Shown: one piece after another, positions 1 through 10,000 of the stretch
Layout: every line of letters begins with the position of its first letter
How positions within the stretch are numbered: the stretch's first letter is position 1
Assembly (NCBI GenBank): GCA_023130215.1
Contig: JAGMAN010000009.1
Span: 1-12,462 of the forward strand
Origin: a bacterium
GTDB taxonomy: Bacteria; NPL-UPA2; JAGMAN01
DNA length: 12,462 nucleotides
Direction: 5' to 3'
Made by a program: the position numbers and the translations under genes
Notes under the pieces: model-generated
What the model was told of the DNA's origin: nothing
Databases searched by the model: none
Seen by the model: only the letters and a program-made list of their open reading frames with translations

Positions 1-34
1 CTAACGGAGCAGTTCAAAGATAGGGTTGAATATA

Positions 35-1690
35 ATGAGGAGTGATACTATTAAAAGGGGGGTGGAGAGAGCGCCCCATAGAGCTCTCCTTTATGCAACA
101 GGTATAACCAGGAAGGATCTGGATAAGCCATTTATTGGAGTGGCAACAAGTTTCACTGATATTGTCCCCGGCCATGTCCATATGAGGGGTTTGGAGCGCT
201 TTATCGAGAGAGGAATATCTGCTGGTGGCGGGGTTCCTTTCCTCTTCGGTGTCCCGGCTATCTGTGATGGTATTGCCATGGGGCATAAGGGAATGCATTA
301 TTCTCTCGCCTCAAGAGAGCTCATTGCTGATACGATTGAGTGTATGGCTGAGGCCCATTGTTTCGATGGACTTGTTCTTCTCACCAACTGCGACAAGATT
401 ACTCCTGGAATGTTGATGGGGGCAGCGAGGTTAGATATTCCTGCTATCGTTATAACGGCCGGTCCTATGTCCTCAGGAAGGTATAAGGGGGAGAGGCTTA
501 ATTATGGAGATTGCTACATAGCAGCCGCCAAACATAAAATGGGCGAAATCTCAGCAGGTGAACTTGAGGCCTGGGAGGCAAATGCCTGCCCCGGGCCCGG
601 CTCATGTCAGGGACTTTACACCGCTAACACTATGGCTTGTCTAACCGAAGCTATGGGGATGTCCCTTCCCGGATGTGGAACAGCTCTGGCCATCTCAGCC
701 GAGAAACAAGGGATTGCCTTCAATTCCGGTAGGCGCATCACAGCACTTATTGAGGAGGAACTCACTACTCGCAAGATTTTGAGTGCTGAGGCCATAAGAA
801 ATGCTATAAGAGTTGATAATGCCCTTGGTGGTTCAACCAATACGGTCTTACATATATTAGCCATAGCCAGGGAAGCTAAGGTTGAGCTTTCAATGGACGT
901 CTTTGATGAGATAAGTAAGAGGACACCTCACATAACCAATCTTTTGCCGTTTGGGCCTGGTTATATGGAGGATCTGGACCAGGCTGGAGGAATTCCCGGA
1001 GTATTAAATGTTATCTCAAAGAGCCTTGAATCCAACCCAACTGTGAGCGGGAAAGATATTAAGGTAGTAGCCAGGGAGGGAAAGGTCCTTGACCGGGAGG
1101 TAATCAGGTCGGTTGAAAATCCATACCATCCTGAGGGAGGAATTGCCATTTTGAAAGGAAACTTAGCCCCTGAAGGAGCGGTGGTGAAGCAATCGGCTGT
1201 TTATCCTGAGATGATGATTTTTAAGGGAAAAGTTAGGGTCTTTGAATCCGAAGAAAAAGCTACCGAGGCAATCGTAGAGGGTAAGATAACTTCAGGTGCG
1301 GTAGTTGTAATTCGCTGTGAGGGACCAAGAGGAGGGCCAGGGATGAGGGAGATGCTCTATCCCACCTCCTTCATCTTTGGAATGGGTTTAGCTACCAAAG
1401 TTGCCTTAATTACCGATGGCCGATTCTCTGGCGCAACCCAGGGACTGTCCATTGGACACATTTCCCCCGAGGCAATGGAGGGAGGACCCATAGCTATCGT
1501 TCAGGATGGGGATGAAATCTCCATAGATATTCCAAATAGAAAGCTGGAGTTAAATATAAGTGGTGAAGAGATTAAGAATCGGCTTCGGAAGTGGAAGGCG
1601 CCCGAGCCAAAGATAAAAGAGGGCTACTTAGCCCGTTATGCGAAGATGGTAACTTCTGCCAGCACGGGAGCAGTCTTTAAGGAGGAGTAG
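35..1690 (+). CDS. ilvD: Dihydroxy-acid dehydratase
   Basis: Catalyses dehydration of 2,3-dihydroxy-isovalerate and 2,3-dihydroxy-3-methylvalerate to the keto acids that precede valine and isoleucine, in the cytoplasm, using an Fe-S cluster. The 551-residue product has the family length. It opens with [16 protein letters not shown], shows [16 protein letters not shown], the cluster cysteine in [10 protein letters not shown] (Cys119) and CPGPGSCQG (Cys185, Cys191), and ends with the conserved [19 protein letters not shown] region. I chose ATG at 35 rather than the in-frame TTG at 26: family members start at MRSD, and AGGG at 22-25 is well spaced for 35. It is the first gene of the ilvD-ilvB-ilvN-ilvC-leuA operon. 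Only 34 bases precede it, so the operon promoter or any attenuator lies outside the window. The family call is certain; the cluster type ([2Fe-2S] or [4Fe-4S]) is not decided here. Confidence 0.96.
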
Positions 1691-1694
1691 CAAA

Positions 1695-3365
1695 GTGAAG
1701 AAGACAGGAGCGCAGATTGTCATTGATGCTATGTTAAAGGAGGGAGTGGATACTGCCTTTGGCATCTTAGGAGGAGCCATGCTTCCGGTGTTCGATGTGC
1801 TATATGATGCACCGCTGAGGTTTATCCTCACTCGTCACGAGCAGGGGGCCGCTCATATGGCCGATGGCTATGCCCGGGCTACCGGAAAGGTGGGAGTCTG
1901 CATGGCCACTTCCGGTCCAGGAGCCACCAACTTAGTCACTGGAATTGCTACCGCCAATATGGATTCAGTGCCCATAGTGGCCATTACAGGACAGGTCTTT
2001 ACCACCATGATTGGGAATGATGCTTTCCAGGAGGCTGATGTTACCGGGATAACCCGCCCCATAACCAAACATAATTATTTAGTCAAGGATGTTAAGGAGC
2101 TTCCCCGCATTATGAAGGAAGCTTTCCATATTGCCCGCACCGGACGGCCAGGACCGGTGCTCATTGATATTCCCAAAGATGTCCAGATTGCTGAGACTGA
2201 ATATAAATATCCGAAAAATGTAGAGATGAGAACCTATAAGCCAACCTATTCTGGCCATCCCCAGCAGATAAAGAGAGCGGCTGAGGCCATTCATCAGGCT
2301 AAAAAGCCAATAATTTACGCCGGTGGTGGAGTTATCATCTCAGGGGCAGCTAAGGAATTAGCGGAGTTGGCTAAGAAAGCCAATATCCCGACTGCCACTA
2401 CGCTACTTGGCCTGGGAGGATTCCCGGAGACAGACCGTCTCTCCCTGGGAATGTTAGGCATGCACGGGACGCGCTACGCTAATTATGCCATTATGGAATC
2501 AGATTTAATTATTGCCATTGGAGCCCGGTTCGATGACCGGGTTACTGGAAAATTAGATGAGTTCGCTCCACATGCTAAAATCATTCACATTGACATAGAC
2601 CCTTCCTCCATCAGCAAGAATGTTCGGGTGGACATTCCCATTGTCGGGGATGTCCAGAATGTGCTCAGGGAACTGAATAAATTAGTGAGGAAGGGCCAGT
2701 ATGCTCCCTGGCATAAGAAGATAAGGGAATGGAAGCGCAAATTCCCTCTTACCTACGAAGATAATGGGGAACTTAAACCTCAATTCGTGGTAGAGGAGAT
2801 TTATAAAGCTACCAGGGGCGAGGCCATCATCTGCACCGAGGTGGGGCAGAATCAGATGTGGGCCGCCCAGTTTTATCAGTATACTAAGCCGCGCACCCTA
2901 CTCTCTTCCGGTGGCTTAGGAACGATGGGCTATGGATTCCCGGCGGCTATTGGAGCTCAGATTGGCTGTCCGGACAGAATAGTCTTCGATATAGCCGGGG
3001 ACGGTAGTTTCCAGATGAACATTCAGGAGCTGGCTACTGCCGCTATAAATAAGGTTCCAGTCAAGGTGGCTATTCTCAATAATGGCTACTTAGGAATGGT
3101 TCGCCAGTGGCAGGAACTCTTCTATAAGAAACGATATTCTCATACCAGCTTGGCCGGGGGGCCGGATTTTGTTAAAGTAGCTGAAGCCTACGGAGCAGTT
3201 GGCATTCGGGTGGAGAAGAAGGGGGGGGTTAGGCCAGCCATAAAAAAGGCCCTCTCCATTAAGAAGCCGGTAGTTATAGACTTTCACGTTGAACTCGAGG
3301 AGAATGTCTTCCCCATGGTTCCAGCCGGGAAAGCTGTCAATCAGATGATAGGAGGGATGGCTTAA
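1695..3365 (+). CDS. ilvB: Acetolactate synthase, large catalytic subunit
   Basis: ThDP-dependent condensation of two pyruvates to acetolactate, or pyruvate plus 2-oxobutyrate to acetohydroxybutyrate: the first common step of valine, leucine and isoleucine synthesis. The 556 residues hold the three expected domains: pyrimidine-binding N-domain with catalytic Glu49 in [16 protein letters not shown], central domain with [16 protein letters not shown], and C-terminal ThDP domain with G435-D436-G437 through N462-N463. GMVRQWQ (Trp472) is the conserved site equivalent to the plant herbicide-site tryptophan. These features separate it from catabolic ALS and other pyruvate decarboxylase relatives. 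GTG start at 1695 is 4 bases after ilvD, with GGAGG at 1681-1685 overlapping the ilvD stop. The small subunit ilvN begins one base after the stop, so the two are surely cotranslated. A run of eight G at 3221-3228 lies in frame in the C-terminal part. Confidence 0.97.
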
Positions 3366-3366
3366 C

Positions 3367-3846
3367 ATGAAGCACACCATTTCCGCTTTGGTCGAAAATC
3401 GGTCCGGAGTTTTAGCTCATATCTCAACCCTTTTCAGTGCCCGGGGCTTTAACATTGATAGCCTGGCAGTGGGAGAAACGGATGACCCCGCTGTTTCTAA
3501 AATGACCATTGTCCTGGATGCTGATGAGAGGATTTTAGAGCAGGTGGTTAAGCAGCTTCGCAAACTGATTGATGTGATTAAAGTCCAGGACCTTACCGGC
3601 CAGAACTTCATTGATAGAGAATTAGTCTTAGTCAAGATAAACGCTACCCCCGCTACCCGTTCTGAGATAATGCAGACGGTGGACATCTTTCGGGCCAAGA
3701 TAGTTGATGCCAAGCCAAGGTCTCTTACGGTTGAGTTGACTGGAGATGCAGATAAGATAAATGGTTTTCTGGAACTGGTTGGGGAGTTTGGCATCAAGGA
3801 CATCGTCCGCACGGGCAAAATTGCCATGGCCCGGGGAAATAAATAG
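3367..3846 (+). CDS. ilvN: Acetolactate synthase, small regulatory subunit
   Basis: Regulatory partner of the preceding large subunit; activates it and confers feedback inhibition. The 159 residues match the usual IlvH/IlvN length: an N-terminal ACT domain (about 1-78, [18 protein letters not shown], then [17 protein letters not shown]) and a C-terminal domain (about 80-159, [16 protein letters not shown] onwards). Asn11, Gly14 and Asn29 align with E. coli IlvH positions where substitutions are known to relieve valine inhibition, so this subunit is predicted to be valine-sensitive (inference from family knowledge). ATG at 3367 has GGAGGG just upstream inside the end of ilvB, and the one-base gap suggests translational coupling and balanced subunit supply. 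The symbol could equally be ilvH. Confidence 0.95.
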
Positions 3847-3857
3847 GAGAAAAACTT

Positions 3858-4847
3858 ATGGCTAAGATGTATTATGACAAGGACGCAGATTTAAAGTTAC
3901 TAAAGGGAAAGAGAATTGCCATCATTGGCTACGGGATCCAGGGGCACGGTCAGGCCCAGAATCTTCGGGACAGTGGCATGGATGTGGTTGTCAGCGACAT
4001 AAAAGGTAGCCTTAACTGGAAGAAAGCTGTGAAGGACGGTTTCCAGCCCTTGGAAGCGGCGGAAGCCGTAAAGAAATCCGATATCATTCAGATTTTAACC
4101 CAGGACGATGTTCAGGCTAAAGTTTACCGGGAAGGAGTTCGCCCGGGCTTGAAGAAAGGAAATGCCCTTGTCTTCTCTCATGGATTCAACATCCATTATG
4201 GGCAGATTGTGCCTCCGGCGGACATAGATGTCTTCATGGTTGCTCCCAAGGGACCGGGGAGCCTGGTCAGGGATATGTTCCTTAAGGGAGGAGGAGTCCC
4301 CTGCCTCTTAGCTATCCACCAGGACTACACCGGTAAGGCAAAAAAACTTGGTCTTGCTTACGCTAAGGCTATTGGAGGAACCAGGGCAGGAGTTATCTTG
4401 ACTACCTTTCAGGAGGAGACGGAGACAGATTTGTTTGGAGAACAGACTGTTCTCTGCGGTGGTGTCTCCGAGCTAATCAGGGCTGGTTTTGACACTCTGA
4501 TTGAGGCGGGCTATCAACCGGAAATCGCTTACTTTGAATGTCTACACGAGCTGAAGCTCATCGTGGATATGATTCACCTCAATGGAATCACTGGAATGAG
4601 GGAACGGGTGAGCGATACGGCTGAATACGGGGACCTGACCCGCGGAAGGAGAATTATCACTAAAGAGACCCGAGCAGAAATGAAGAAGATCCTGAAAGAA
4701 GTTCAATCGGGGGAATTTGCCCGGGAATGGATCATGGAAAACAGGGTCAGCCGTCCCGTCCTCAATGCTCTCAGCAAGAAAGATGCCCAGCACCTGATTG
4801 AGAAGGTAGGAAAGAAACTACGAGGTATGATGAGCTGGTTGAAATGA
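3858..4847 (+). CDS. ilvC: Ketol-acid reductoisomerase, class I, atypical cofactor loop
   Basis: Mg-dependent isomerisation and NAD(P)H-dependent reduction of acetolactate or acetohydroxybutyrate to dihydroxy acids. The 329 residues fit class I. A Rossmann domain carries [17 protein letters not shown] (24-40); the catalytic set is visible: His108 in FSHGFNIHY, Lys131 in APKGPG, Asp191 and Glu195 in ETDLFGEQ, Glu227 and Glu231 in [14 protein letters not shown]. The cofactor loop is unusual: it reads S46-D-I-K-G-S-L-N-W54 where NADPH-type enzymes usually read G-L-R-x-G-S-x-S-W, so beta-2 ends in an acidic residue and the phosphate-binding Arg is missing. The common ILLPDE segment is ILTQDD (79-84). 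NADH preference is an inference. GGAG at 3846-3849 serves the ATG, 11 bases after ilvN. The stop overlaps the leuA start (ATGA). Family call is certain. Confidence 0.97.
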
Positions 4848-6358
4848 AAAAAGAGAGAGTCTTTATTTTTGATACTACATTGCGAGATGGGGAGCAGTCT
4901 CCCGGAGCCAGCCTCAACACCAAGCAGAAATTGGAGGTGGCTAAACAGCTCCAAAAACTTGGCGTGGATGTTATTGAAGCTGGATTCCCCATTTCCTCAC
5001 CGGGAGATTTTGAGGCAGTGAAGAAAATTGCCGAGACGGTGAAGGGTCCGGTAATTGCCGGGCTGACTCGCGTCCTGAAGAAAGACATAGACTGCTGCTG
5101 GCAGGCAGTGCGTCCGGCAAAGAGACCGCGTATCCATACTTTTGTAGGGACTTCACCCGTTCATCGGGACTATATTCTGCGAAAGTCAGAGGAGGAAGTT
5201 TTGAAGATGGCCGTGGACGCGGTGAAACTGGCTAAGAGCTACACTGAGGATGTAGAGTTCTCAGCCATGGATGCCACCAGGACGGAATTTGATTTCCTGT
5301 GTGAAATCTTGGAGAGGACGATTGAGGCTGGCGCCGCCACTGTCAATATTCCTGATACCGTGGGTTACGCTATGCCAGATGAGTTCGGCGCCCTCATAAA
5401 GAATATTTTAGAGAAAGTGTCAAACATCAAAAAAGTAGTGGTGAGCGTGCATTGCCATGATGACCTTGGCCTGGCCACAGCTAATTCAATTTCAGCCGTC
5501 CTCAATGGTGCCAGACAGGTGGAGTGCACCATAAACGGCATAGGAGAGCGAGCGGGCAATGTCTCCCTGGAAGAGATCGTTATGGCCATTAAGGCCAGGC
5601 AGGATTTCTTTAAATACACAACGGGGATAAAGGCAAAAAATATCTATAAGACCAGCAGGCTGGTCAGCCATCTTACCGGGATAGCCGTCCAGCCGAACAA
5701 GGCAATTGTGGGGGCAAATGCATTCGCTCACAGCTCCGGAATCCATCAGGATGGAATTCTGAAGAAGCGGAGCACCTTCGAGATAATGTCTCCGGCCTCC
5801 ATTGGCCTTAAGGAAAGCAAGCTGATCCTCACCAGCCGCTCGGGAAGACACGCTCTTCGGCACAGCCTGGAGGAGTTAGGGTATAAACTGAAGGCGAAGG
5901 AACTGGAACGAGTCTACCAGAGCTTCAAGAAAGTGGCCGATAGGAAGAAGGAGATATTTAATGGAGACTTAGAAGCTATGGTTGAGGATGAGATCTCAGC
6001 CATCCCTGAAACATTCCGCCTTGAATACATTCATACCACCAGTGGAAGCCAGACCGTCCCTACCGCTACCATCAGGCTGAAGAGGGGAGCTAAAATAATT
6101 GAAGATGCGGCCTGCGGCGATGGCCCGGTGGATGCCGCTTATAGAACCATTGACAGAATTACCGGGGTAAAGGGAAAGCTCCTTGATTATTCCTTAAGGG
6201 CGGTCACCAGCGGAAAGGATGCTCTTGGTGAGGTCACTGTCCAGATAGCTGGAGGGAAACAGACAGTAATTGGTAGGGGAACAAGCACCGACATCATCGA
6301 GGCAAGCGCCAAGGCATACCTGAATGCGGTGAACAAGCTTATATACAGAAGAACTTAG
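4844..6358 (+). CDS. leuA: 2-isopropylmalate synthase
   Basis: Condenses acetyl-CoA with 2-ketoisovalerate, the product made by the genes before it, and so commits carbon to leucine. The 504-residue protein has an HMGL-like TIM barrel with [15 protein letters not shown] (Arg14, Asp15), metal ligands His203 and His205 in [13 protein letters not shown], Asn239 in GERAGN, the [11 protein letters not shown] motif, and a C-terminal LeuA allosteric domain (about 390-504, with [15 protein letters not shown]) that normally binds leucine for feedback inhibition. Length and the [13 protein letters not shown] segment fit leucine-type IPMS better than citramalate or homocitrate synthase, although citramalate synthase cannot be excluded by eye. 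It starts inside the ilvC stop (ATGA overlap) without a strong ribosome site of its own, so coupling to ilvC is likely. leuB and leuCD do not follow. Confidence 0.93.
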
Positions 6359-7848: not shown

Positions 7849-7881
7849 GAAGTCAGGTTCTCATTGAAAGGGGGTGGTCGG

Positions 7882-8076
7882 ATGCTCAGCCACTGGGAGA
7901 TTGGACTTGTCATTATTGTGGCTATCCTCCTTTTTGGGGCAAAAAGGCTTCCCGAGATAGGAAGAGCATTGGGAAGAGCCATCAAGGAGTTTAAGAAAGC
8001 AGGCAAGGATATTAAGAGCGATATCGAGGAGGTTGCCAAAGAAGAAGACGAGGAGAAGAAAGTGGATGAAGGATAG
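7882..8076 (+). CDS. tatA: Sec-independent protein translocase subunit TatA
   Basis: Small membrane protein that polymerises to form the twin-arginine translocation channel for folded proteins. The 64 residues show a short periplasmic N-terminus with polar Glu6, one transmembrane helix (about 7-19), the FGAKRLPEIGRALG hinge (18-31), an amphipathic helix (about 24-42), and an acidic, lysine-rich tail. This is the TatA/E layout; no separate TatB is seen, so a minimal TatAC system is likely, with TatA doing both jobs. ATG at 7882 is chosen over TTG at 7864: it follows AAAGGGGG at 7867-7873 at good spacing and starts the protein at MLSHWEIG. The last 11 bases overlap tatC in another frame. Confidence 0.93.
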   Translation: MLSHWEIGLVIIVAILLFGAKRLPEIGRALGRAIKEFKKAGKDIKSDIEEVAKEEDEEKKVDEG

Positions 8077-8797
8077 AAAGTTATCCCTCATTGAACATTT
8101 GGAGGAACTGAGAAGAAGAATTATAATCTCGCTTACCTCGATCGCCCTCTTTTCCCTGTTATCATACCTCTATGTTAAGAAAGTCCTTGCCTTCCTTGTC
8201 CAGCCGGTCATCCAGCTAACTGGCAGGCTCATTTTCATTAAGCCCCTGGAAGCATTCTTAGCTCATTTGAAACTGGCTCTCCTCTGCGGCGCCTTTTTAG
8301 CCCTTCCGGTAATCCTTCACCAGATCTGGCAATTTGTATCAGTAGGCTTGAAGGAGAGTGAGAGGAAGTATCTTAGAGTTTTCGGCCCCCTGTCCCTCTT
8401 CCTTTTCCTCTCAGGAGCAGGAATCGCCTATTTCTTGATACTTCCTCTGGGAATAAGGTTTCTGGTAAGCCGCTATGCTACCGAGTTTCTGGAACCGAAG
8501 ATTTCTGTGAGCTATTATATCTCCTTCGTCGGTCTCCTCTTACTGTCTTTTGGTTGTGTATTCGAGCTACCTTTAGTGGTCCTCTTCCTCACCAAGATAG
8601 GTCTGGTTACTCCTCAGGGTCTTCGCAGAAAGAGGAGAGAGGTAGTCCTCGCCACTTTCGTCTTCGCGGCTATTATGACCCCGCCCGATGTCTTCACCCA
8701 GATCCTCCTGGCCGTTCCCATCCTTCTACTCTATGAAGCCAGTCTCTGGACATCTGTATTTGCGCACAAAAGGAGGATAAGCAAAGAGATGGGATGA
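8066..8797 (+). CDS. tatC: Sec-independent protein translocase subunit TatC
   Basis: Polytopic inner-membrane receptor that recognises twin-arginine signal peptides. The 243 residues begin MKDRKLSLIEHLEELRRRI, the conserved cytoplasmic N-tail with Glu15, and contain six hydrophobic segments. Glu99 in GLKESERKY corresponds to the signal-binding glutamate of E. coli TatC (Glu103), and VFELP and MTPPDVFTQ (Asp208) are the other family signatures. ATG at 8066 is preferred to TTG at 8033: the protein then starts at the conserved region, and AGGAGAAG at 8051-8058 is a suitable ribosome site. It overlaps tatA by 11 bases, so the subunits are translationally coupled. The next gene encodes a protein with a twin-arginine signal. 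Confidence 0.96.
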   Translation: MKDRKLSLIEHLEELRRRIIISLTSIALFSLLSYLYVKKVLAFLVQPVIQLTGRLIFIKPLEAFLAHLKLALLCGAFLALPVILHQIWQFVSVGLKESERKYLRVFGPLSLFLFLSGAGIAYFLILPLGIRFLVSRYATEFLEPKISVSYYISFVGLLLLSFGCVFELPLVVLFLTKIGLVTPQGLRRKRREVVLATFVFAAIMTPPDVFTQILLAVPILLLYEASLWTSVFAHKRRISKEMG

Positions 8798-8814: not shown

Positions 8815-8843
8815 TTGACATGTGTTGAGATTCTGCAGATAAT
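8815..8843 (+). promoter_or_regulatory. Sigma70-type promoter before the radical SAM gene
   Basis: TTGACA at 8815-8820 and GATAAT at 8838-8843 are separated by exactly 17 bases: a 6/6 and a 5/6 match to consensus. The predicted start of transcription is near 8850, where the ribosome site GGAGGG (8850-8855) begins, so the untranslated leader would be only about 11 bases. This would allow the radical SAM and Trm112-like genes to be expressed apart from tatAC. The very short leader is the main reason for doubt. Confidence 0.55.
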
Positions 8844-8860
8844 AGTGGCGGAGGGCTTTG

Positions 8861-10000
8861 GTGAAAATAAAAAACATTAACTTCACCAGAAGAGGCTTTC
8901 TGAAGCAAAGTTGCCTGGTGGGGTTAGGGCTTGGGATTTCTCCTTATCTATTAAGATCTTTAGCTTGGGCCGGGACAACTGAAGGGAGGGGTCTCCATGA
9001 GGCCAGATTCTATCAGATAGTTGATGATAAAACAGCCCGGTGCCTGCTCTGCCCTCGCAAATGTATTCTCCGGGAGGGCGAGAGAAGTTTCTGCCGGGTG
9101 AGGGAGGTGCGCAGTGGAAAACTTTGGACCTTAGCCTACGGGAACCCTTGTTCCGCTAACGTTGACCCCGTTGAGAAGAAACCCATATTTCATATGCTTC
9201 CGGCAAGCAAGTCCTACTCCATAGCCACGGCTGGTTGCAACCTGAGATGTAAGTTCTGCCAGAACTGGCAGATCTCTCAGTTTGCCCCTGAACAAACCAG
9301 GAATTATAGCTTATCGCCGGAGGAAGTGGTCGAGAAAGCATTGGAGACTAAATCAAAATCAATTGCCTATACTTATTCCGAACCGACCATCTTTTACGAA
9401 TATATGATTGATACAGCCAGGCTGGCTAAAAAAAAGGGCATAAAGGGCATCCTGGTTACCGCCGGATACATTAATGAGGAACCCCTGAAGGAACTTTGCA
9501 AATACATTGATGCCGCCAACGTAGATTTAAAGGGATTTACCGATAAGTATTATATTCCGGTGTGCCAAGGAGAAGTTAAATATGTCTTAGAGACGCTCCG
9601 GATAACGCAGAGGGAAGGAATCTGGTTAGAAATCACTAACCTGATTGTTCCCACCTTAAACGATGATATGAAGACGATAAAGAAGATGTGCCAGTGGCTG
9701 AAGGAGACCCTGGGGCCTGAAGTTCCCCTCCATTTCTCCAGGTTCTCGCCAATGTATAAGCTAAGGAACCTTCATCGCACTCCGGTATCTACGCTGGAGA
9801 GGGCAAGGAATATAGCACTGGAGGTCGGCCTACACTATGTCTATATTGGCAATGTGCCCGGGCACGAAGGCGAGAATACTTATTGTCCTGAATGCAAAAA
9901 ACTTCTCATCCAGAGACGTGGCTATAGTATTCTTCAGAATAACCTCAAGGACGGCCACTGCCAATACTGCGGACATAAAATTCCTGGAGTGTGGAGCTAA
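8861..10000 (+). CDS. AmmeMemoRadiSam-type radical SAM enzyme with a twin-arginine signal peptide
   Basis: Radical SAM protein related to pyruvate formate-lyase activating enzymes and to the group found beside AMMECR1- and Memo-like proteins; its reaction is unknown. Residues 8-37 are a model Tat signal: FTRRGFLKQ (Arg10-Arg11), a moderately hydrophobic glycine-rich core, and a predicted AWA cleavage site after Ala37. Next comes a cysteine cluster C61-x2-C64-x3-C68 with Cys78, then the [4Fe-4S] motif C126-x3-C130-x2-C133 (CNLRCKFC) in an SPASM-free TIM-type core, ending with a Cys4 zinc ribbon (Cys342, Cys345, Cys367, Cys370) and HKIPGVW. I chose GTG at 8861 because GGAGGG at 8850-8855 is only 2 bases from TTG 8858. 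The 379 residues look intact. It lies 63 bases after tatC, behind its own apparent promoter. AMMECR1 and Memo partners are not in this window. The family is well supported by eye; the exact subgroup is less certain. Confidence 0.88.
   Translation: MKIKNINFTRRGFLKQSCLVGLGLGISPYLLRSLAWAGTTEGRGLHEARFYQIVDDKTARCLLCPRKCILREGERSFCRVREVRSGKLWTLAYGNPCSANVDPVEKKPIFHMLPASKSYSIATAGCNLRCKFCQNWQISQFAPEQTRNYSLSPEEVVEKALETKSKSIAYTYSEPTIFYEYMIDTARLAKKKGIKGILVTAGYINEEPLKELCKYIDAANVDLKGFTDKYYIPVCQGEVKYVLETLRITQREGIWLEITNLIVPTLNDDMKTIKKMCQWLKETLGPEVPLHFSRFSPMYKLRNLHRTPVSTLERARNIALEVGLHYVYIGNVPGHEGENTYCPECKKLLIQRRGYSILQNNLKDGHCQYCGHKIPGVWS

Follow-up and report, generated by a model that had tools for sequence, protein, structure and literature searches.

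In the AmmeMemoRadiSam system, as annotated by NCBI, the radical SAM enzyme AmrS (TIGR04337) works with Memo (protein B, TIGR04336) and AMMECR1 (protein A, TIGR04335). Contexts that join Memo, AMMECR1 and radical SAM proteins are credited to Burroughs et al. 2019 where PMC7159879 cites that work. AmrS shares the common radical SAM fold with the PFL activating enzyme (3cb8) and other radical SAM activases. For the partners, the closest described structures are those of human MEMO1, which binds Cu/Fe (3bcz and 7kq8), and of archaeal AMMECR1-family proteins (1vaj and 1zq7). Carriers of the NosR/NapH/RnfG type are described for periplasmic enzymes.

SAM and low-potential reductant are normally cytoplasmic, and it is because both are found there that radical SAM enzymes are, to our knowledge, treated as strictly cytoplasmic; SAM is not known to occur outside the cytoplasm. 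Human relatives of both Memo and AMMECR1 are linked to disease. No report of an exported AmrS, or of exported radical SAM enzymes, was found in the open full-text literature searched.

The window (the whole 12,462-nucleotide stretch of DNA that was analysed) contains an amrS gene whose product, judged from its sequence and those of its relatives, is probably the radical SAM member of an AmmeMemoRadiSam module that works outside the cytoplasm. As in the described system, all three components score above the curated family cut-offs and carry the same cysteines. In contrast to it, AmrS here has a Tat signal, Memo and AMMECR1 are fused behind a signal of their own, and signal-less paralogues of AmrS and Memo are encoded in the same genome. 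AmrS differs from the PFL activating enzyme in its export signal, its extra N-terminal Cys set and its C-terminal Cys4, and no glycyl-radical partner was seen. The two halves of the fusion resemble the MEMO1 and archaeal AMMECR1 structures by sequence and fold, but here form a single polypeptide that carries an export signal. In several relatives NosR/NapH-like and FMN-binding domains are encoded beside amrS; unlike in the known carrier systems, the acceptor would be a radical SAM enzyme, for which no report was found in the literature searched.

Table 1. Features of the tatA-tatC-amrS region (window coordinates)
Feature	Position	Strand	Remarks
tatA	7864..8076	+	TIGR01411 66.6 bits (cut-off 53.9); PF02416
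tatC	8033..8797	+	TIGR00945 197 bits (cut-off 132.7); PF00902 225 bits
Promoter-like TTGACA-17-GATAAT	8815..8843	+	in the tatC-amrS gap; an 11/12 pattern match only
Shine-Dalgarno-like GGAGGG	8850..8855	+	precedes the GTG start of amrS; read from sequence
Alternative amrS start, TTG	8858	+	
amrS	8861..10000	+	Tat-signal-bearing radical SAM enzyme of the AmmeMemoRadiSam system; 379 aa from a GTG start
Tat signal peptide, AmrS residues 1-37	8861..8971	+	TRRGFLK 9-15, hydrophobic core, AWA 35-37
N-terminal Cys set, C61-x2-C64-x3-C68-x9-C78 (C61xxCPxxC68...C78)	9041..9094	+	invariant in 38/38 aligned relatives
Radical SAM CxxxCxxC (C126, C130, C133)	9236..9259	+	invariant in 38/38 aligned relatives, Sec-signal members included
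C-terminal Cys4 knuckle (C342, C345, C367, C370)	9884..9970	+	C342, C367, C370 invariant; C345 in at least 90% of aligned relatives

The amrS reading frame is real and complete. AmrS scores 401.4 bits against TIGR04337 (curated cut-off 220) and 81 bits against the radical SAM domain PF04055, and the CxxxCxxC motif within that domain, together with the fold, places it in the radical SAM superfamily. Against TIGR02493, the comparison for the PFL activating enzyme, the score is 58.8 bits, far under the cut-off of 231.75. The first-pass annotation had described an intact CxxxCxxC core and a Cys4 zinc ribbon, and both hold up, the former at residues 126-133 and the latter as a Cys4 knuckle at 342/345/367/370. 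It had not mentioned another invariant Cys set (C61, C64, C68, C78), which lies ahead of the radical SAM core. In motif scans, CxxxCxxC[QE]N is found in 122/123 AmrS sequences and the CxxCxxxC of the N-terminal set in 123/123. The AlphaFold model of AmrS (pLDDT 90.8) has 3cb8 as its top PDB match (target-normalised TM 0.83). It comprises a signal helix (residues 10-34), a low-confidence linker (32-41, pLDDT < 50) and a well-predicted enzyme part, a modelled layout that is as expected for a cleavable signal.

The TRRGFLK motif at residues 9-15 and the AWA site at 35-37 were both found as previously read, and residues 9-37 match the Tat signal model TIGR01409 (23.7 bits, cut-off 16.7). Genes for Tat machinery are present in the same genome, tatA and tatC passing TIGR01411 and TIGR00945, respectively. 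To see how widespread the signal is, we gathered 80 relatives, searched 47 of their genomes for AmrS, AMMECR1 and Memo, and extracted the N-termini for scoring. Motif and hydrophobicity rules, supplemented by hand review, were used to call signals in place of SignalP; for AmrS, hand review moved L005, L019, L025, L034 and L078 from Tat to Sec, and L053 and L008 to Tat. In a tree of 123 AmrS sequences, the window AmrS lies inside an 84-member clade. The first-pass annotation had proposed tabulating Tat signals among homologues; within this clade 58 members are Tat-type and 20 Sec-type, with 1 ambiguous and 5 lacking a signal (L053 counted as Tat). A Tat or Sec signal is thus carried by 78/84 clade members (79 with the ambiguous one) versus 0/39 of the AmrS outside the clade, which were processed identically and are mostly second copies from the same genomes. 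The genome of the window itself has a second AmrS on contig C132 and a Memo on C23, both signal-less, which presumably serve a cytoplasmic version of the system; having copies with and without a signal side by side offers a direct route to comparing both. In one relative (L022:937-3257) there is a tandem pair of amrS genes, both signal-bearing.

The relation of signal type to the Tat machinery was addressed by a tatC search of 50 genomes. tatC is present in 24/24 genomes with Tat-type AmrS and absent from 18/19 with Sec-type AmrS, the exception being L025. Candidatus Velamenicoccus archaeovorus (L051), which has a complete chromosome, lacks tatC and has a Sec-type AmrS signal, and the L020 chromosome carries tatC and a Tat-type AmrS signal; L143, a third AmrS paralogue from the L016 genome, has a Sec-type signal despite tatC. 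The raw Fisher p of 3e-11 overstates the case, as there are only 3 phylogenetically independent contrasts, all or nearly all of which agree (sign test p 0.25). The simplest reading of these sequences is that AmrS export is kept under selection where Tat is absent. However, a Sec-exported AmrS would need an Fe-S cluster acquired outside, which is hard to explain. The possibility that a chance extension or a wrong start codon accounts for the Tat-like N-terminus can be dismissed with near certainty, being ruled out by its conservation in dozens of relatives, its absence from paralogues and its Sec-type replacement where tatC is missing.

Homologues that lack the N-terminal 40 residues and conserve an internal start had been named in advance as counter-evidence to the signal. 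Seven such relatives do exist, five in the tree (L056, L071, L077, L079, L081) plus L064 and L080, none with a contiguous signal, to be set against the 78 with one. L071, L077 and L079 have an AmrS without any signal. In the other four (L056:2872-4088, L064:4821-6047, L080:4914-6140, L081:2080-3309), AmrS is split into a short TM-anchor ORF, which ends in the first strand of the enzyme, and a separate signal-less core with its own start, located behind NosR/NapH-like redox genes; here the core may be cytoplasmic or anchor-held. These split genes, as well as the missing signals of L077 and L079, lend some credit to another topology, in which the N-terminal segment of AmrS is a membrane anchor and the catalytic domain is cytoplasmic, acting on the membrane from inside. 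We consider this improbable, given that Tat signals are N-in, often with an AxA-type cleavage site, and that the partner fusion proteins bear export or lipoprotein signals. Sec-type AmrS signals also argue against it: their N-side charge is +1 to +4 and the N side is at least as positive as the C side in 17/19, so the enzyme domain is predicted to be outside (C-out).

Co-export of Memo and AMMECR1, the other two components, had escaped the first-pass annotation. Contig C43 of the same genome encodes a Memo-AMMECR1 fusion (TIGR04336 283.7 against a cut-off of 26, TIGR04335 181.3 against 99), in addition to the standalone Memo on C23. At its N-terminus is a hydrophobic segment with a lipobox-like FALSC, and the fusion is probably a lipoprotein. 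An N-terminal signal is found in 61/64 evaluable fusions, C43 included, and in none of L095, L097 and L124; in this count hand review put L068, L069 and L111 under signal, and L104, L112 and L123 were masked or cut. Among standalone proteins, 2/32 Memo (one a frame-broken fusion, one beside a separate AMMECR1) and 0/19 AMMECR1 have a signal. In the structure model of the C43 fusion (pLDDT 88.3), one domain matches MEMO1 and the other archaeal AMMECR1 structures. A sequence search aligns the Memo half to MEMO1, and the invariant His and Cys residues of this half suggest that its metal site is intact. Signal conservation, co-export of the partners and the match of Tat and Sec types with tatC presence together strongly support the earlier view of AmrS as an exported protein. 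On these sequence patterns the AmrS of the window is very probably exported via Tat, and in this clade its AmmeMemoRadiSam module very probably resides outside the cytoplasm. If this is true, Memo and AMMECR1 would have extracytoplasmic substrates in the lineages concerned.

The distance of 63 bases from tatC to amrS was confirmed, with the tatC stop at 8797; it had been taken as a hint of a dedicated Tat cargo. The true start of tatC may be internal to the called ORF, near MKDRKLSL, and further upstream (26-6358) an apparent ilvD-ilvB-ilvN-ilvC-leuA operon was read from the sequence. A dedicated cargo is possible. AmrS is the only match above cut-off in a TIGR01409 scan of the genome, the sole means by which Tat cargo was assessed there, with a model that misses atypical signals and a genome ~90% complete. 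Moreover, 9/80 relatives have tatC in the amrS locus (within up to ~11 kb), far more than expected if ~10 kb were placed at random in a genome of 1-2 Mb, against 0/20 loci around signal-less AmrS paralogues. On the other hand, in most relatives with a Tat signal amrS is not beside tatC. A promoter-like sequence, an 11/12 match, also intervenes and makes co-transcription of amrS with tatC uncertain, in a region where the pattern scan gives 10 sites versus 2.4 expected. The chances thus appear evenly balanced that the adjacency is incidental, with amrS having its own promoter and AmrS using a general Tat system, an arrangement that is compatible with an extracytoplasmic module.

For the extracytoplasmic activity, its electron and SAM source and its substrate, we infer the following scheme. 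AmrS would fold and acquire its [4Fe-4S] cluster in the cytoplasm, would be exported in folded form through TatAC, encoded just upstream, and would then be released or retained at the outer face of the inner membrane. It would meet Memo and AMMECR1 as one signal-bearing polypeptide, probably a lipoprotein (C43), and the module would modify a substrate in the membrane, in the periplasm or on the cell surface. Carriers of the NapH/NosR/RnfG-like or DsbD-like kind would bring reductant across the membrane, and a membrane-embedded SpdSyn-like protein, often encoded beside amrS, would perhaps handle SAM or a nucleoside related to it.

This last protein is large and polytopic and contains a spermidine-synthase domain (PF01564; NF037959, fused MFS/spermidine synthase). 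It is encoded in 35/80 signal-clade amrS loci and the Memo-AMMECR1 fusion in 27/80, with both in seven, versus 1/20 each in loci of signal-less AmrS paralogues. Examples are L009:6201-8477 and L006:1204-3513, and the genome of the window also has a membrane-size SpdSyn-like protein (C113:1730-2218, in a 771-codon frame). A link of this protein to SAM/dcSAM is possible. NosR/NapH/RnfG-like redox proteins are encoded directly upstream of amrS in L004, L056, L064, L077, L080 and L081, and in 13 further loci a DsbD-like membrane protein is encoded downstream of the fusion gene, mostly directly. Both kinds of neighbour are candidate electron routes; the SAM route is less sure.

A tentative proposal, to which we give somewhat less than an even chance, is that in many bacterial lineages the complete module performs extracytoplasmic radical SAM chemistry, and that low-potential electrons, together with SAM or a nucleoside like it, are supplied across the membrane by neighbouring membrane SpdSyn-like and NosR/NapH/DsbD-like proteins. 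If a conserved, co-exported radical SAM system is real, electrons and SAM, or a substitute for it, would have to be available on the outside of the membrane. Exported AmrS might instead perform no radical SAM chemistry outside, acting in the cytoplasm before export (for example in product loading or partner modification) or having an external role as a metal or thiol protein. This would fit the normally cytoplasmic location of SAM and low-potential electrons, as well as the Sec-type variants, which would leave unfolded and cluster-free. It nevertheless seems unlikely, as all cluster Cys and the other invariant family residues are retained in Tat- and Sec-type members alike, Memo and AMMECR1 are directed to the same side, and relatives encode trans-membrane redox proteins next door.

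In L004, the closest relative, a gene for a membrane polyferredoxin (NapH-like, 3308-4564) lies between tatC and amrS. A NapH-like polyferredoxin was rejected as a fixed part of the module, with only weak ferredoxin-like matches in the genome of the window. DUF362-like and DsbD-like neighbours were likewise rejected as a general part, being found in 7 and 13 loci, respectively, in sub-lineages only. The DsbD/TauE-like membrane protein of L018 (5680-6354) and 12 other loci is encoded after the fusion gene, directly so in most of these Sec-type loci. DUF362-like proteins are encoded beside amrS in L045, L054, L060, L067, L070, L073 and L009, and those of L054 and L009 match PF04015 and begin with an RR-type motif.
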